A DNA stretch of 64,000 nt from Limimonas halophila. GTDB taxonomy: Bacteria; Pseudomonadota; Alphaproteobacteria; Kiloniellales; Rhodovibrionaceae. The stretch is from contig NZ_FNCE01000001.1 of NCBI RefSeq assembly GCF_900100655.1, positions 186,001 through 250,000 on the forward strand. Reading direction: 5' to 3'. Numbering within the stretch: position 1 is the stretch's first letter; the number at the start of each line of letters is the position of its first letter. Shown in pieces: positions 3,268 to 55,875 of this stretch. The position numbers and the translations under genes are program-made. Under the pieces are notes generated by a model. That model was not told where the DNA came from and did not search any database. It saw only the letters and a program-made list of their open reading frames with translations.

Positions 3268-4011
3268 ATGGAGGGAGCCCTGCGGCTGACGGCCGAGGAC
3301 CGCGCGGCCCAGCTGGACGCGCGCGCCGGCCACCTCTCGGGAAGCGAACTGATCGCCGCGGCGGCCGACGAGTTTCCGGGCAGCCTCGCCTGTGTGTCCG
3401 CCTTCGGCGCGGAGAGCGCGGGCCTGCTCTACCTGGTCGCCCAGGTGGACCCGTCGATCCCGATCATCTTTCTGGAAACGCGCAAGCACTTCCCGGAAAC
3501 CCTGATGTACCGGGATCGCATCGCGGCAAAGCTCGGGCTGACCGACGTGCGCTCGGTCAAACCCGAGCCCGCCGACCTGGAACAGCCCGATCCGGACGGC
3601 CGCCTGTGGGCGCGCAATCCCGACAAGTGCTGCCACCTGCGCAAGGTGCTGCCGCTGGAACGCGCGCTCTCCGGCTTCGACGCCTGGATCACCGGGCGCA
3701 AGCGCTTCCAGAGCACCACGCGCGCCGAGCTGCCCCCCGTCGAGGCCGCCGACGGCCGCGTCAAGATCAACCCCCTGTGCGATTGGGGCAAGGACGACGT
3801 CGACCGCCTCTTCGCCGACACCGGGCTGCCCCGCCACCCCCTCGTCCACGAGGGCTACCCCTCGATCGGCTGCCTGCCGTGCACGCGCAAGCCCGCCGAG
3901 GACGAGGACGAGCGCGGCGGCCGCTGGGCCGGCAGCAACAAGACCGAGTGCGGCATCCACAAGGTCTGGTGGCTCCAGCAGCAGGGCGGCGACGCGGGCG
4001 ACGCCATCTAG
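3268..4011 (+). CDS. cysH: iron-sulfur APS/PAPS reductase CysH
   Basis: 247 residues. It reduces adenylyl sulfate (APS) or PAPS to sulfite in assimilatory sulfate reduction. The [4Fe-4S] ligand pattern of the APS-reductase class is complete: Cys121-Cys122 (KCCHLRKVLPL) and Cys202/Cys205 (SIGCLPCTRK). The catalytic ECGIH motif has Cys228 near the C-terminus. The cluster-binding cysteines favour APS over PAPS as substrate (family knowledge). It stands alone, without cysI/cysDN or the DUF934 gene often found with it, behind a palindromic operator-like site. Confidence 0.93.
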   Translation: MEGALRLTAEDRAAQLDARAGHLSGSELIAAAADEFPGSLACVSAFGAESAGLLYLVAQVDPSIPIIFLETRKHFPETLMYRDRIAAKLGLTDVRSVKPEPADLEQPDPDGRLWARNPDKCCHLRKVLPLERALSGFDAWITGRKRFQSTTRAELPPVEAADGRVKINPLCDWGKDDVDRLFADTGLPRHPLVHEGYPSIGCLPCTRKPAEDEDERGGRWAGSNKTECGIHKVWWLQQQGGDAGDAI

Positions 4012-4164
4012 GGCATGATGAGGTCGGACCGGAACGGTCCGGGCTCTGGACAGCCGGCGCAAGCCGGCTCGCGCGCCGGAGGCGTGCAATCATGCCCGCA
4101 CACGAACGACATAGAGCGCGATGAGGCTCGTCGGTGGATACCGCGTCGTCTCATCGCGCTCTAG
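4012..4164. other. non-coding stretch between cysH and the repeat array
   Basis: Contains short inverted repeats (for example GGACCGGAACGGTCC near 4026, and a GAGCGCGATGAG / CTCATCGCGCTC pair around 4116-4161) and no supportable ORF. The second pair could form the transcription end of cysH. Confidence 0.4.
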
Positions 4165-4440
4165 CCAAAGATGATCCTTGGAACCCTGTGTCATTCGACA
4201 CCGGCGTCACATCGCGATGTTCAGGTCGCTCACGACCAAAGATGATCCTTCCAAAGATAATCTTTGGAAATGTCTGTCATTTGACACCGGCATCACGTCG
4301 CGATGTGAGCGGCTCTCACGACCAAGGATGATCCTTGGAACCGTCTGTCGTTCGACACCGGCGTCGCGCCGCGATGTTCGCGTCACTCACGACCAAAGGT
4401 GATCTTTCCAAAATGATCTTTGGAAAGGTCTGATATTGCC
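4165..4440. repeat. tandem 71-bp palindromic repeat array, locus 1
   Basis: Three complete 71-nt units (4165-4235, 4251-4321, 4322-4392) and a truncated fourth (4393-~4440). Each unit opens with a perfect interrupted palindrome of type CCAAGGAT-N-ATCCTTGG, followed by a TGTC..TCGACA palindrome, an ATCGCGAT core and a closing CTCACGA. Between units 1 and 2 a 15-nt partial start is duplicated (4236-4250). The array fills the gap between the convergent cysH and CDF transporter genes. The same 71-nt period occurs upstream of argG. There are no unique spacers, so this is not a CRISPR. Confidence 0.85.
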
Positions 4441-4473
4441 GCGGGGCGCACCGCCCGGTCGCCCGGCAAGGCG

Positions 4474-5409
4474 TCAGGCGGCGTGCCCGGCGTGGCCGGT
4501 CGCGGGTGCTTCGTCGATGCACGCATCGCCGTACTCGATCTGCACCGTGGCGTGATCCACGCCGAAGCGCTCGCGAAGCACCGCCTTCACGCGCGCGGCG
4601 AGGGCATCGTGCTCGGCGTCCCCGGCCGCGGTGACGTGCAGGCTCATCATCGGGCGTTCCGGCGACAGCGCCCAGGCGTGGACGTGGTGCACGTCGCGCA
4701 CGCCCGCCACGGTTTCGCCCAGCACGCGCTCGACCTCGCGGGGATCGATCTCGCCGGGCGCGCCTTCCAGCAGCACGTGGCCCGCCTGACGCAGCAGGTA
4801 CCAAGCGCTGCGCAGCACCAGCAGTGCCACCAGAAGCGACAGGATGGGGTCGATGGGCGTCCAGCCGGTGACGAGGATCACCCCGGCCGCCCCCAGCGCC
4901 GCCACCGAGCCCAGCAGATCGCCTAGCACGTGCAGCACGGCGCCGCGCATGTTCAGGTTCTCGCGGCTGCCGCCGTGGAGAATGGCGAAAACCGCGACGT
5001 TGACCACCAGCCCCGCCGCCGCGATCGCCGCCATCGCCGGCCCCATCACCGGGGTGGGCGCCAGCAGCCGGTGGACCGCCTCCACCGCGATCCAGCCCAC
5101 GATCGCCAGCAGCGCCAGCCCGTTCACGAACGCCGCCAGCACGGGGAAGCGGTGGTAGCCGTAGGTCCGCCGCCGGTCGGCGGGGCGGTCGGTGACGCGG
5201 AAGGCGATCAGCGCGAGGCCCAGCGAGGCCGCGTCCGTCAGCATGTGCGCCGCGTCGGCGAGCAGGGCGAGCGATCCCGAGACGATGCCGCCCACGACCT
5301 CCACCCCCATGAAGGCCGCCGTCAGCCCCGCCGCGAGCGCCAGCCGGCGCCGATCGCCGCCCCCGTTGCCGTGCGCGTGCGCGTGCGCGTGGTCGTGATC
5401 GTGCCCCAT
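4474..5409 (-). CDS. cation diffusion facilitator (CDF) zinc/cobalt exporter, CzcD/ZitB type
   Basis: About 311 residues from the ATG at 5409; this start was chosen because it yields the typical His-rich N-terminus (MGHDHDHAHAHAHG), although an in-frame ATG exists at 5448. Six membrane segments follow. The CDF metal site is present as HxxxD in TM2 (HMLTD) and HVLGD in TM5, and the C-terminal cytoplasmic domain has the usual ferredoxin-like fold region, ending in a His/Asp-rich tail. It exports Zn2+ (or Co/Cd) in exchange for protons at the inner membrane. It is a single gene converging on cysH, with no metal-responsive regulator adjacent. Confidence 0.9.
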   Translation of the reverse strand: MGHDHDHAHAHAHGNGGGDRRRLALAAGLTAAFMGVEVVGGIVSGSLALLADAAHMLTDAASLGLALIAFRVTDRPADRRRTYGYHRFPVLAAFVNGLALLAIVGWIAVEAVHRLLAPTPVMGPAMAAIAAAGLVVNVAVFAILHGGSRENLNMRGAVLHVLGDLLGSVAALGAAGVILVTGWTPIDPILSLLVALLVLRSAWYLLRQAGHVLLEGAPGEIDPREVERVLGETVAGVRDVHHVHAWALSPERPMMSLHVTAAGDAEHDALAARVKAVLRERFGVDHATVQIEYGDACIDEAPATGHAGHAA

Positions 5410-8177: not shown

Positions 8178-8678
8178 GTGACGAACGGGACGATCGTGCG
8201 GGAACGGCCCGAGGATGGGCCGGTGATCGACGAGCTGGTGGCGCGGAGCTTCGGGCCGGAGCGCACGCGCAAGACGGTCTACCGCCTGCGCGAGGGCGTC
8301 CCCCCGGTGCCCGAGTTGTGCTTCGTCGTCGTCGGGGAAGATGACGCGGTGCATGCGGCCATCCGCTACTGGCCGGTGTTGATCGAGGCAACGCCCGCCA
8401 TCCTGCTCGGCCCGCTGGCCGTCCAGCCGGAGATGCGCGGGCAGGGCATGGGCCGCCGACTCGTCCAACACAGCCTGGACGCGGCGCGCGGCCACGGGCA
8501 CCGCATCTGCCTCGTCGTCGGCGATCCGCGCTACTATCGCCCCTACGGTTTCCAGCTCGCCAACCCGCTCGGCCTCATCTTGCCCGGGCCCGTCGACCCG
8601 CGCCGCTTCCAGGCGGCGGCCCTGGTCCCCGGCGCGCTGCAAGGCGTGCGCGGCTGGGTGAAGCGAGCGGCCGCTTAA
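8178..8678 (+). CDS. GNAT N-acetyltransferase (YhbS-like)
   Basis: 166 residues with a GTG start after GGGGGCGAG. The acetyl-CoA binding motif A is clear (LGPLAVQPEMRGQGMGRRLV: V-x-P-x-x-R-G-x-G-x-G), followed by GHGHRICLVVGDPRYYRPYGF, which typifies the YhbS/COG3153 subgroup. Substrate unknown. No operon partner; it follows lysR on the same strand after 70 nt. Confidence 0.88.
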   Translation: MTNGTIVRERPEDGPVIDELVARSFGPERTRKTVYRLREGVPPVPELCFVVVGEDDAVHAAIRYWPVLIEATPAILLGPLAVQPEMRGQGMGRRLVQHSLDAARGHGHRICLVVGDPRYYRPYGFQLANPLGLILPGPVDPRRFQAAALVPGALQGVRGWVKRAAA

Positions 8679-8830
8679 CCCCATCAATTGGCCATAAATG
8701 GGGGCACCCCCCGGCGCCAGGCCCTTCTCGCCGGCACAGGGGGGCGTCGAACGCGTCAGCGGTCTATACGCGCGCTCAGTGCGCGGCACCGACGGGCAGC
8801 TCCGATTTATCGGCAGCGTCTTGTTCGGGT

Positions 8831-26045: not shown

Positions 26046-26050
26046 GGGAT

Positions 26051-26085
26051 GGCCTCATTCTGTCTTTCTCCTGAAGGAGAAAGGA
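26051..26085 (+). repeat. intergenic hairpin repeat, type TTCTTTCTCC (copy b)
   Basis: GGCCTCATTCTG followed by TCTTTCTCC (26063-26071) and GGAGAAAGG around a TGAA loop. Tail on the left, opposite in orientation to copies a and d. Starts 6 nt after the aldolase stop. Confidence 0.8.
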
Positions 26086-26159
26086 CCCTGCCGAGATTCC
26101 GCTGATACCTGCCCAATTCGCCGTCAGTGATGCTCACCGAGCAACGCGTATGAGAGGCC

Positions 26160-39613: not shown

Positions 39614-40549
39614 ATGACGGGCGATGCCGCACATGCTGATCTTCTTCGCCTTCCTGCTGCTGGGGCTGCTGGGAAGCTGCGTGCTCGTGGTCGCCAGCTG
39701 ATCGCCGTCCTTGCGGCCGCGTTCGTCCTTGCCGGCTGCGGCGATCTGCCGCGCCCCTTCCAGGGGGCGGAGAAGGCCGGCAACCCCGTTCTCTCCCTGC
39801 CCGACAGCAGCGGCATCGCCGTGCTTCCCGTCACGGGCCTGACCCCGCGCGGCGACGCGCGCATGGCGACGGCCATGGCGAAGGCGCTGCGTGCCCAGAA
39901 CGTGCCCGCCCGCGTCAGCTCCGGCAGCAACGACACGCGCTGGCTCATGGGCCACGCCGAGGCGGCGGGCACCGAGGGCATCCGCCTGACCTGGGAGCTG
40001 TACGGCGAGGGCGGCGGGCTGACCGGCGTGCACGAGCACGTTGTGCCCATCACGCGCACGGCCTGGCGCGCGGGCGCCTCCGACCGCCTGGCGCGCGTGG
40101 CCCGCCGGGCCGCGCCCCAGATCGCCGGGCTGGTGCAGGATCGGCCGGAACAGAAGCGCAGTGGCTTGCGCGGTTTTCCGGAGGGGACGCGCGTGGTCGT
40201 CGAGCCCGCCACGGGCAAGCCCACCGAGGGCGCGCGGGAACTCGCCCCCGCCATGGCGTCGGCACTGCGGCGGCGGGGCCTGCCGCTGGCGGACACGGCG
40301 CAGCCCGGCGACATCGTCATCAGCGGTACGCTCGGCGGCAAGGCGTTGTCGGGCGGCGGGCGGCGCCTGCGCATCACCTGGGTGGTGGAGCGCGAGGGGC
40401 GCGCGCAGCCCCTCGGCGACCTGAACCAGTCCAACGCCGTGCCCGAAGGCGTGCTGGAGCAGGGGTGGCCGGCACTCAGCCGCCGCATCGCGCGAGCAGC
40501 GGTGCCCGGCATTCTGCGCGTGCTGCGCGCCGCAGCGTCCCAGGGCTGA
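39614..40549 (+). CDS. lipoprotein of unknown function
   Basis: 311 residues from the ATG at 39614, the only normal start in frame, although this gives an unusually long n-region before the signal core QLIAVLAAAFVLAGC (lipobox LAGC). The true start may be a CTG near 39698. The mature protein shows two similar segments, SGIAVLPVTGLTPRGDARMATAMAKAL and TRVVVEPATGKPTEGARELAPAMASAL, suggesting an internal duplication. Function unknown; probably outer-membrane anchored. Confidence 0.65.
   Translation: MTGDAAHADLLRLPAAGAAGKLRARGRQLIAVLAAAFVLAGCGDLPRPFQGAEKAGNPVLSLPDSSGIAVLPVTGLTPRGDARMATAMAKALRAQNVPARVSSGSNDTRWLMGHAEAAGTEGIRLTWELYGEGGGLTGVHEHVVPITRTAWRAGASDRLARVARRAAPQIAGLVQDRPEQKRSGLRGFPEGTRVVVEPATGKPTEGARELAPAMASALRRRGLPLADTAQPGDIVISGTLGGKALSGGGRRLRITWVVEREGRAQPLGDLNQSNAVPEGVLEQGWPALSRRIARAAVPGILRVLRAAASQG
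39624..39701 (+). CDS. possible 25-residue membrane peptide overlapping the lipoprotein 5' end
   Basis: Reads MPHMLIFFAFLLLGLLGSC then VLVVAS and stops at 39701, in a different frame from the lipoprotein. Almost entirely hydrophobic, preceded by GACGGGCG. It could be a real leader or small membrane protein coupled to the lipoprotein, or chance. Low confidence. Confidence 0.25.
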   Translation: MPHMLIFFAFLLLGLLGSCVLVVAS

Positions 40550-40762
40550 TCGCGGCCGGGCGATCACGTTTACAGGGTATGACGGCCTTGCTACATTCCG
40601 CGCGCCGTCGGCCGGGGACGCGCTGGCCGGCGTCGGTTGCGTTGGTCCGGCACCGCCGCGCCGCGGCCGGACCCATCGGCGCAGCCACTGGCATCGACGC
40701 GCAACCGCCGGATCGACCGCAATCGACAGCGTTTCACCAACCGCGCCGCTCCCGGATCGCTC

Positions 40763-43252: not shown

Positions 43253-44350
43253 ATGGGCTTCAACTGCGGCATCGTCGGGCTGCCGAACGTCGGCAAGTCC
43301 ACGCTCTTCAACGCGCTGACCGAGGCCGCGCAGGCCGAAGCGGCCAACTATCCCTTCTGCACGATCGAGCCCAACGTGGGCCGCGTGCCCGTGCCGGACC
43401 CGCGCCTGCACCAGCTGGCCGAGGTGGCGCAGTCGCGCGACGTCATCCCGACGCAGCTGGAGTTCGTGGACATCGCCGGGCTGGTGCGCGGCGCCTCCAA
43501 GGGCGAGGGCCTGGGCAACCAGTTCCTCGGCAACATCCGCGAGGTGGACGCCATCGTCCACCTGCTGCGCTGCTTCGAGGGCGAGACCTCCCACGTCGAC
43601 GGCGGCGTCGACCCCATCCGCGACGCCGAGGCCGTCGAGACCGAATTGCTGATCGCCGACCTGGAATCCCTGGAGCGCCAGCATCAGCAGGTGGTCAAGA
43701 AGGCGCGCGGCGGCGACAAGGAGGCCGTGGCCAAGAAGCCGCTGCTGGAGCGTCTGATCGCCGCCTTGCAGGAGGGCACGCCCGCGCGCGACGTCGAGAT
43801 CGCGCCGGAAGAGCAGGGCTTCCTCAAGGAGATGCACCTGCTCACGCGCAAGCCCGTGCTCTACGTCGCCAACGTCGGCGACGACGAGGTCGCCACCGGC
43901 AACGAACATTCCGAGCGCGTGGCCGAGCACGCCCGCCAGCACGGCGCCGGCTGTGTCACCATCGCCGCCGCCATCGAGGCGGAAGTGGCCGCGCTGCCCT
44001 CCGCCGAGGAAAAGCGCGCCTTCCTCGACGACCTGGGGCTCAGCGAAAGCGGCCTCGACCGCGTGATCAAGGCGGGCTACACGCTGCTCGACCTCATCAC
44101 CTTCTTCACCGCCGGCCCAAAGGAAACGCGCGCCTGGACCACGGTGCGCGGCGCCACGGCGCCAGAGGCCGCGGGCGTCATCCACTCCGACATGCAGCGC
44201 GGCTTCATCCGCGCCGAAACCATCCACTGGCAGGACTTCGTCGAACTCGGCGGCGAAGCCGCCGCCAAGGACGCCGGCAAGATGCGCGTGGAAGGCCGCG
44301 ACTACGTCGTCCAGGACGGCGACGTGATGCACTTCAGGTTTAATGTCTAA
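43253..44350 (+). CDS. ychF: redox-regulated ATPase YchF
   Basis: 365 residues. OBG-family P-loop protein binding ATP rather than GTP: Walker [16 protein letters not shown], then [21 protein letters not shown], and a YVANVGDDE segment in place of NKxD. The C-terminal TGS domain ends [15 protein letters not shown]. Acts on ribosomes/translation and oxidative-stress control. Last gene before islet B. Confidence 0.97.
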
Positions 44351-44368
44351 GAAACACAGCGTGTTTCA

Positions 44369-44552
44369 TCGCGCCAGTCAGTCGAATGGACGCCGTCCAA
44401 ACGACATGGGGGCGGCTGTCTTGGGGGGACAGTCGCAGTCCGTAAACAAGGCTTGTTTAATCGCGCCAGTCAGTCCGGCGGACGCCCGGAAAACGCGATG
44501 TGGGTGGCCGTCTTGGGGACAGTCGCAGTCCGCACCGTCACTCCGGCGGGCG
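44369..44552. repeat. 92-bp tandem duplication with hairpins after ychF
   Basis: Two imperfect copies of a 92-nt unit, both beginning TCGCGCCAGTCAGT (44369 and 44461) and ending around GGACAGTCGCAGTCCG. A palindrome of type AAACA..TGTTT precedes each copy (44353-44366 and 44444-44457). Fills the space between ychF and the first islet B repeat; no gene is seen here. Confidence 0.75.
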
Positions 44553-55661: not shown

Positions 55662-55875
55662 CCAAAGATGATCTTTGGAAACCGGTGTCACTCGACACCG
55701 GCGTCACGTCGAGATGCATTGGTCTCTCACGACCAAGGATGATCCTTGGAACCCTGTGTCACTCAACACCGGCGTAAACATGAGGATGTTTAATCCCATC
55801 TGTCACTCGACACCAGCGTCGCGCCGAGATGCATGGGGCCCTCACGACCAAGGATCATCTTTGGAAACCACAGTC
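55662..55875. repeat. 71-bp palindromic repeat array upstream of argG, locus 2
   Basis: One complete 71-nt unit (55662-55732), a second unit (from 55733) that diverges after AACACCGGCGTAAAC, a third core (55799-55847) and a last partial start (55848-~55875). The first unit opens with CCAAAGAT-G-ATCTTTGG, a perfect interrupted palindrome. Same unit length and motifs as at 4165-4440. Confidence 0.85.

Follow-up and report, generated by a model that had tools for sequence, protein, structure and literature searches.

The tandem array that follows cysH in the window, the 64,000-nucleotide stretch of Limimonas halophila DNA analysed here, belongs to a family of repeats (fam1) that is dispersed through the genome, keeps a strand polarity relative to the upstream gene, docks at stop codons and shows covariation between the stem, loop and tail of its hairpins. 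The window is C1:186001-250000 of a 3.04 Mb assembly of 26 contigs, whose completeness is rated 100%. We read the array as a tandem of non-autonomous REP-like mobile repeats that would be recognised as folded single-stranded DNA, an interpretation to which we give an even chance. Recognition in single-stranded form, mobility and transcription we infer from the patterns described below.

The array behind cysH and its repeat units

The array lies at 4165-4430 on the plus strand and contains three units (Table 1). TRF reported arrays at 4165-4336 (score 237) and 4251-4404 (score 203), and there are three 91-nt direct copies. The sequence-only reading had described units with an exact 71-nt period after cysH. 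The array itself was confirmed, but it does not stand directly behind the gene: another dispersed repeat of 153 bp lies between them, which begins at the first base after the cysH stop and ends in a perfect 14-bp inverted repeat (4112-4125 / 4150-4163). Nor did the exact period hold across the three units, as the cores are spaced 86 and then 71 nt apart. An inserted 15-nt partial hairpin (4236-4250) accounts for the longer first period.

Table 1. Features of the cysH array and related repeats in the window
Feature	Position	Strand	Basis or detail
cysH, gene upstream of the array	3268..4011	+	NF002537, 6.6e-82; stop TAG 4009-4011
Member of another dispersed repeat family, between cysH and the array	4012..4163	+	54 matches in genome; 14-bp arms
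Head 1, alpha type, one A.C mismatch	4165..4181	+	head pattern, stem pairing
Unit 1 core	4189..4207	+	0 mismatches to TGTCATTCGACACCGGCGT
Unit 1 tail	4208..4235	+	75-copy alignment
Partial head copy, 15 nt, stretching the first period to 86	4236..4250	+	
Head 2, alpha type, perfect	4251..4267	+	
Unit 2 core	4275..4293	+	2 mismatches to TGTCATTCGACACCGGCGT
Head 3, alpha type, perfect, matched change relative to head 2	4322..4338	+	
Unit 3 core	4346..4364	+	1 mismatch to TGTCATTCGACACCGGCGT
Terminal heads, degenerate	4393..4430	+	direct and inverted repeat listing
fam2, two beta heads (44351, 44443), different body	44351..44540	+	pattern match
Second fam1 array of the window	55662..55864	+	alpha heads 55662, 55733, 55848; beta head 55775

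A fam1 unit starts with a head hairpin, continues with a conserved core of 19 nt and closes with a tail. Two types of head precede the same core. The alpha head (CCAARxy-TGA-y'x'YTTGG) has 42 exact CCAARRATGATYYTTGG matches in the genome, counting either strand, against 0 for the reversed-pattern control, which is more than chance would give. The earlier view that this is an unusual structured repeat was supported. The beta head reads NAAACxy-loop-y'x'GTTTN' and is followed by AYCSC. The corresponding pattern, AAACN{7,10}GTTTNAYCSC, was found 64 times in the genome and its control 0 times. In 97 other genomes of the order and class it yielded 0-9 matches each, with 0-8 for the reversed control. 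Sequences upstream of the 75 cores comprised 30 alpha heads, 37 beta heads and 8 that belong to neither class and are excluded from all head counts.

Beta heads also precede at least three other repeat bodies, fam2, fam3 and fam4, which were distinguished by eye. In the window, the two fam2 heads are 92 nt apart and directly follow the ychF stop at 44348-44350 (ychF identified by TIGR00092), and fam2 has 23 matches in the genome (E <=0.01). A fam4-like element (AACCCCATCAATTGGCCATAAATGGGGGC..CCAGGCCC) was seen at 8661-8760, where a small hairpin overlaps the stop of the ORF at 8178-8678.

Within an array, all cores lie on one strand and not in the inverted dimers of the REP/BIME kind, and a fam1 head and core can directly follow a core at GGCG^T, in which case the cores are 44-45 nt apart. 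The sequence on the 5' side of beta heads belongs to a gene or to a repeat and has no constant tag. On the 3' side, heads with perfect stems that were found through their core also read NAYCSC, except for one with ATCAC. At 3 nt behind the alpha heads, some copies have CGTC and the rest CATC, CCTG or others. All 5 intact beta heads with a 5-nt loop carry ACC and not ATC in the tail, versus 1 of the 55 others, a difference that may go back to lineage or to structure. As the sequence-only reading had stated, the array is not a CRISPR: the same conserved core and tail recur between the hairpins in 75 copies across sites, and there are no unique spacers. Integron attC sites were also set aside; the attC R box has the consensus GTTRRRY, and the 3' arm here is GTTTN in the 64 heads found by pattern, as the pattern dictates, and GTTT in most of the heads found through their core.

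Dispersal and docking at stop codons

A search of the genome with the array returned further copies, with 56 BLAST matches at E <=1, the array itself included. Among the fetched loci, there were 75 core copies at about 36 sites, with 1 to 4 copies per site, after two chance matches in coding sequence on C3, a contig-end duplicate (the end of C7 equals C22) and a core at the very start of C11 had been dropped. In the second fam1 array of the window, the cores begin at 55686, 55757 and 55801, and the distance between the array start and the start codon of argG (identified by NF001770) is 10 nt. The repeat was found in none of 57 searched relatives (E <=0.001), of which 2 belong to the same family, 55 to the same order and none to the same genus. 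A search of 84,980 species genomes, a collection that may leave out records of this genome or of very near ones, found the exact 19-nt core TGTCAYTCGACACCGGCGT in 2 unrelated records; viral contigs gave 0.

The copies have diverged, and those inside an array are closer to each other: ungapped identity over 52 nt, for which 40 of the 75 copies were used, has a mean of 68% for copies at different sites and of 76% for copies in the same array. The 19-nt core has a mean identity of 85% over all 75 copies. This divergence gives no sign of recent movement. Contigs C5, C7, C11, C23, C25 and C26 start or end in or near these repeats. The repeats may thus have broken the assembly, and the copy numbers may be lower bounds.

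The position of the repeats relative to genes was determined with gene calls from our own small codon-usage finder, which is validated only by the proteins scanned. On these calls, 33 of the 36 fam1 arrays with an upstream gene have the same strand as that gene, and for 27 of 36 the array begins no more than 25 bp from the stop of the gene. When head clusters before all bodies were considered, 56 of 59 had an upstream gene call, and 48 of these 56 lay on the strand of that gene (binomial p 5e-8). The same-strand sites are sharply positioned, with 38 of 48 starting between -20 and +5 nt from the stop and with peaks at 0 (16 sites), -3 (7) and -2 (6). The remaining 10 lie 9 to 153 nt behind the upstream gene; at 34, 42, 66 and 71 nt (polA among them), a degenerate or differently footed head that was missed by the strict patterns intervenes. 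Eight of the 56 sites are opposite in strand to the upstream gene. Three control repeats from the same loci, counted in five series, were at a stop in 0/9, 0/7, 0/10, 0/11 and 0/3 cases.

The upstream genes have native ends in several instances. We scanned 30 of the 44 upstream proteins listed; for 3 of them NCBIfam gave nothing at 1e-10, and the others include many products of core genes. In gyrB, polA, hslU, mutL, recG and ychF, the last residue corresponds to the last position of the profile, and the native ends of these genes therefore abut the heads. In purB, leuC and an acyl-CoA ligase gene, 5-9 residues extend beyond the profile match, and the ORF enters the head and stops inside it. 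Relative to AAAC, the first base of the stop falls at -4, -2, -1, +4, +9, +14 or +15 in the beta hairpins, with one at -13 (32 heads). The next gene begins tens to hundreds of bp past most heads.

Heads also occur at the start side of divergent genes, at -1 (C7:76174) and at 10 nt (argG in the window). Near position 1179 of locus L083, a head abuts the 3' CCA end of a tRNA (identified by Rfam), and near position 1245 of L092, a head abuts a stretch of the other strand that by eye resembles the 5' end of a tRNA.

Stop-spanning hairpins are rare apart from these repeats but are not unique to them. Taking the longest perfect hairpin of at least 6 bp for each of the 55 genes in the window, 14 genes have one at -12 to +40 of the stop, and 3 of 55 have one at -3 to +2 (the ychF fam2 head, 29074 and the ORF 39821-40549). 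The last is a 7-bp palindrome (TGATCGC..GCGATCA, 40547-40566) over the stop, without AAAC feet or tail. Other intergenic palindromes, e.g., in L065, L073, L081 and at 26049-26150 of the window, read GGGCGGATTNGCCG..CGGCAATCCGCC, TTCTGTCTTTCTCC..GGAGAAAG and CGTCATTGCCCGG, the last of which resembles CGTC REPs by eye; their role here is that of distance controls.

Covariation of stem, loop and tail

The sequence-only reading held that the palindromes of the array are kept by matched changes and that this implies selection on structure. In the array, heads 2 and 3 have no mismatch and are told apart by a matched change, in agreement with that reading, but head 1 has AAAGAT opposite ATCCTT and thus a single A.C mismatch. 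Genome-wide, paired changes were found in the head hairpin, so that both the further copies and the covariation expected by that reading are present. Only the head behaves in this way, and not all three palindromes as had been proposed. Of the 75 copies, 46 retain the TGTC/GACA palindrome of the core, in which no pair has changed on both sides, and 1 has the 6+6 palindrome seen in the tail of the window array. No structure emerged from the consensus folding of 69 aligned bodies, and a long-range CCCAT/ATGGG pairing in the body that had been seen by eye was therefore dropped.

For the beta heads, the inner pairs, the outer pair and the loop are free to vary in the search pattern, which prescribes only AAAC, GTTT and some of the tail. 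Of the 64 beta heads, 60 have Watson-Crick pairing at both inner positions. At the outer position 61 of 64 do, a count that averages 19.8 in shuffles and is reached in 0 of 20,000, and there is no G.U among the inner and outer pairs. In 59 of 60 intact heads, the last loop base complements the S base of the tail (shuffle mean 30.4; reached in 0 of 100,000). For five of the stem dinucleotides, both G/C and C/G were seen as the loop/tail combination, and the coupling therefore does not reflect one linked lineage. The three mismatches of the outer pair N0/N' are in the tandem copies 2 and 3 of L084 and in one nested copy. This favours a host-derived N0/N' letter, although an 8-bp palindrome belonging to the element explains the remaining outer pairs equally well.

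Among 35 distinct heads of equal length, 96.5% of the cells are paired, compared with 75.9% in shuffles and at most 51.1% in slid alignments, with four of the stem pairs invariant by construction of the pattern. The covariation score of these heads is 0.489, versus 0.106 in shuffles and at most 0.078 when slid; two of the five measures (pairs changed on both sides and further pair types) were not above shuffles. The 37 beta heads found through their core include 27 perfect 7-bp stems, 3 with six pairs, 1 with five and 6 with four or fewer. In all 27 perfect stems the loop matches the tail (19 GG/CC, 7 GC/GC and 1 GT/AC). The 31 of 37 with at least five pairs have 217 stem cells, of which 212 hold Watson-Crick pairs, 3 hold GT and 2 something else; the six beta-type sequences with four pairs or fewer are outside this count. 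A looser search that allowed any feet and took the longest stem found 63 hairpins, 56 of them distinct, and loop and tail were complementary in 46 of the 56; among the 10 exceptions are stems that run on into the loop and hairpins that do not belong to the family.

The 30 alpha heads comprise 26 with a perfect stem and 4 with one A.C mismatch. For the 8 distinct arm pairs of this type, the observed pairing is reached in 9 of 5000 cross-shuffles. The loop of the alpha head is nearly constant, and the loop/tail rule rests on the beta heads.

Conserved pairing at the ends of genes could reflect a 3'-UTR RNA element, in which a hairpin formed by the head in the mRNA, right at the stop codon, would affect ribosome release, translation or 3'-end decay of the upstream gene, the pairs being kept by selection on the RNA. 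The shared strand and the stop-codon position of most sites agree with this, as does the RNA fold of the window array, which is far more stable than that of shuffled sequences (z -7.9). In E. coli, moreover, REPs within 15 nt of a stop codon are reported to stall ribosomes (PMC12306157). The stems themselves argue against it, with GT in only 3 of 217 cells and in none of the inner and outer pairs of the 64 heads. G.U pairs are the usual intermediates in RNA stems. The heads at the starts of divergent genes or at a tRNA end are also difficult to reconcile with an RNA role, and the 30 scanned upstream proteins share no evident function. A known RNA family was rejected, as Rfam 15 gave no match in the window at 3900-4700 (E <=1) and only a tRNA in 11 loci (E <=0.5). 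We therefore consider an RNA element a possible but rather unlikely source of the pattern.

Matched changes alone are no proof of structural selection, because template switching can homogenise the arms of a hairpin in one step. It can also create and mend perfect hairpins (PMC8794818), and copying of one quasi-palindrome arm, together with sites that tolerate insertion, would involve no selection at all. In line with such homogenisation, the inner stem letters agree at only 33% per position (30 heads) against the 85% identity of the core, and mismatched inner pairs are as few (4 of 64) as expected of single-step changes. Arm copying predicts neither the match between the loop and a tail that lies outside the hairpin nor the sharp docking at stop codons. 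In addition, the TGTC/GACA palindrome, though short, decays uncompensated instead of being mended. This makes homogenisation on its own a distinctly improbable account. The earlier claim of selection on structure is thus not proved by the matched changes alone, and a selected fold is better argued from the way in which loop and 3' tail are coupled.

Candidate mechanism and comparison with known repeats

Each unit begins with a head hairpin of about 7 bp, and in the beta type G-S at the end of the loop complements the dinucleotide S'-C, which lies three nt past the stem. Under the REP-like reading, this hairpin would be recognised by an enzyme that works on single-stranded DNA in its folded form, and the loop dinucleotide would guide it to the S'C site, as an analogue of the guide tetranucleotide and cleavage dinucleotide in REP and IS200/IS605 systems. 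Such recognition would let the letters drift and still maintain both the pairing of the stem and the match between loop and tail. Units would have landed, or survived, exactly at the ends of ORFs, with the head supplying or keeping the stop codon, and would next have multiplied locally from head to tail in steps of 71 and 44 bp. Where stop and head adjoin without a gap, the arrays would lie in the 3' UTR of the upstream gene.

The drift of the stems, the covariation of loop and tail, the polarity and the scarcity of GT pairs fit single-strand recognition better than an RNA role, and RNA selection and template switching may act together with REP-like recognition. Several observations are unfavourable to the REP-like reading, namely the divergence of the copies, the 8 of 56 sites on the opposite strand, the 10 of 48 at 9-153 nt and the head-to-tail arrays. 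The proposed type of enzyme is also missing from an assembly rated 100% complete. The Y1 transposase domain PF01797 had 0 matches in the genome at E <=0.001 (the control was positive in 5 of 14 genomes), and the TnpB zinc-ribbon domain PF07282 had none at the same threshold. Mobilisation by a RAYT or TnpB of this assembly was rejected accordingly. A wider and tentative proposal, which we regard as doubtful, is a previously undescribed superfamily of mobile repeats docking at stops. Its members would share the head NAAACxy-loop-y'x'GTTTN'-AYCS'C and an unknown single-strand enzyme with a loop guide, would carry at least four bodies at dozens of gene ends, and would match their outer pair to the docking letter.

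Intrinsic transcription terminators at the stop codon would account for hairpins directly behind or over stop codons, but the beta stem is not followed by a T run (judged from the pattern GTTTNAYCSC), and its tail is coupled to the loop instead, which makes them very improbable. Least credible of all is that the heads are host targets of a group II intron or other retroelement, with the bodies as debris of the inserted element. Class C introns typically lie behind terminator-like hairpins, and the genome does contain one group II intron with a reverse transcriptase, the sole RVT_1 match (L105; C9, about 26.2-29.8 kb), which is supported by TIGR04416 and by Rfam D1-D4 parts above thresholds, the domain V part being below threshold. 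The terminator-like hairpin in front of this single intron is, however, G+C-rich and followed by a T run, without the AAAC..GTTT feet and the AYCSC tail of the heads, and the repeat bodies searched had no match to intron families.

The heads work like REPs and are filed here as a variant of REP-type repeats outside the tagged GTAG and CGTC classes. The 64 beta and 42 alpha heads in 3.04 Mb are short, palindromic, mostly extragenic and multicopy and have a common motif, as in the wide-sense definition of REPs (quoted in PMC12306157). The GTAG tag is absent beside the stem, where the 3' side of beta heads reads NAYCSC (fixed by the search pattern), and the RAYT (Y1) of GTAG REPs was not found in this genome. 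CGTC REPs are defined by an unpaired CGTC (or TGTC, CCTC) end and by stems of 8-9 bp that open with A-T pairs (PMC3733652). The heads do not fit this definition: beta heads open with NAAAC and are followed by AYCSC, and alpha heads open with CCAA, with CGTC 3 nt behind only some of them.

The likenesses to GTAG and CGTC REPs are nonetheless extensive. According to PMC3733652, these are likewise short multicopy palindromes found mostly downstream of ORFs (in two genomes, mostly within 20 bp of the ORF 3' end), their subfamilies differ by alternative complementary stem letters, and the ends of GTAG REPs often supply the stop codon. The heads differ from them in the absence of a tag, in their direct head-to-tail arrays with a conserved body and in the coupling of the loop to the 3' tail. 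GT pairs, which are very few in the heads, are often seen in GTAG REPs, and most REP-bearing genomes have few HT dimers or none (PMC3733652), unlike the head-to-tail arrays of fam1. In the open-licence literature, nothing was found on loop/tail coupling in REPs or on this repeat family, which is not proof of absence.

Tandem arrangement is known from mycobacterial interspersed repetitive units (MIRUs). Like the heads, MIRUs are repeats at gene boundaries that are seemingly mobile and do little harm to the neighbouring gene; they insert at start codons and carry an ORF coupled to that gene (PMC12548453), whereas most heads are at stop codons.

REP-type repeats are widespread, and the present family bears on how REPs spread without a RAYT, e.g., in the CGTC class, which is typical of alphaproteobacteria and has no known transposase (PMC3733652). 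The genome provides a clean data set in this regard, in which stem, loop and tail covary, and docking at stop codons may affect translation and 3' ends. In IS200/IS605 and TnpA-REP systems, a single strand is bound by the enzyme in folded form, the cleavage dinucleotide is chosen by complementarity to a few guide bases, and a change of the guide shifts the site predictably (PMC8266576). These systems resemble the heads in combining a hairpin with a short guide. They use a Y1 enzyme, of which none was found here, and the IS200/IS605 guide is a tetranucleotide 5' of the hairpin (PMC8266576), whereas the covarying bases of the heads are in the loop and in the 3' tail, which points to a concrete loop-guide model of recognition.
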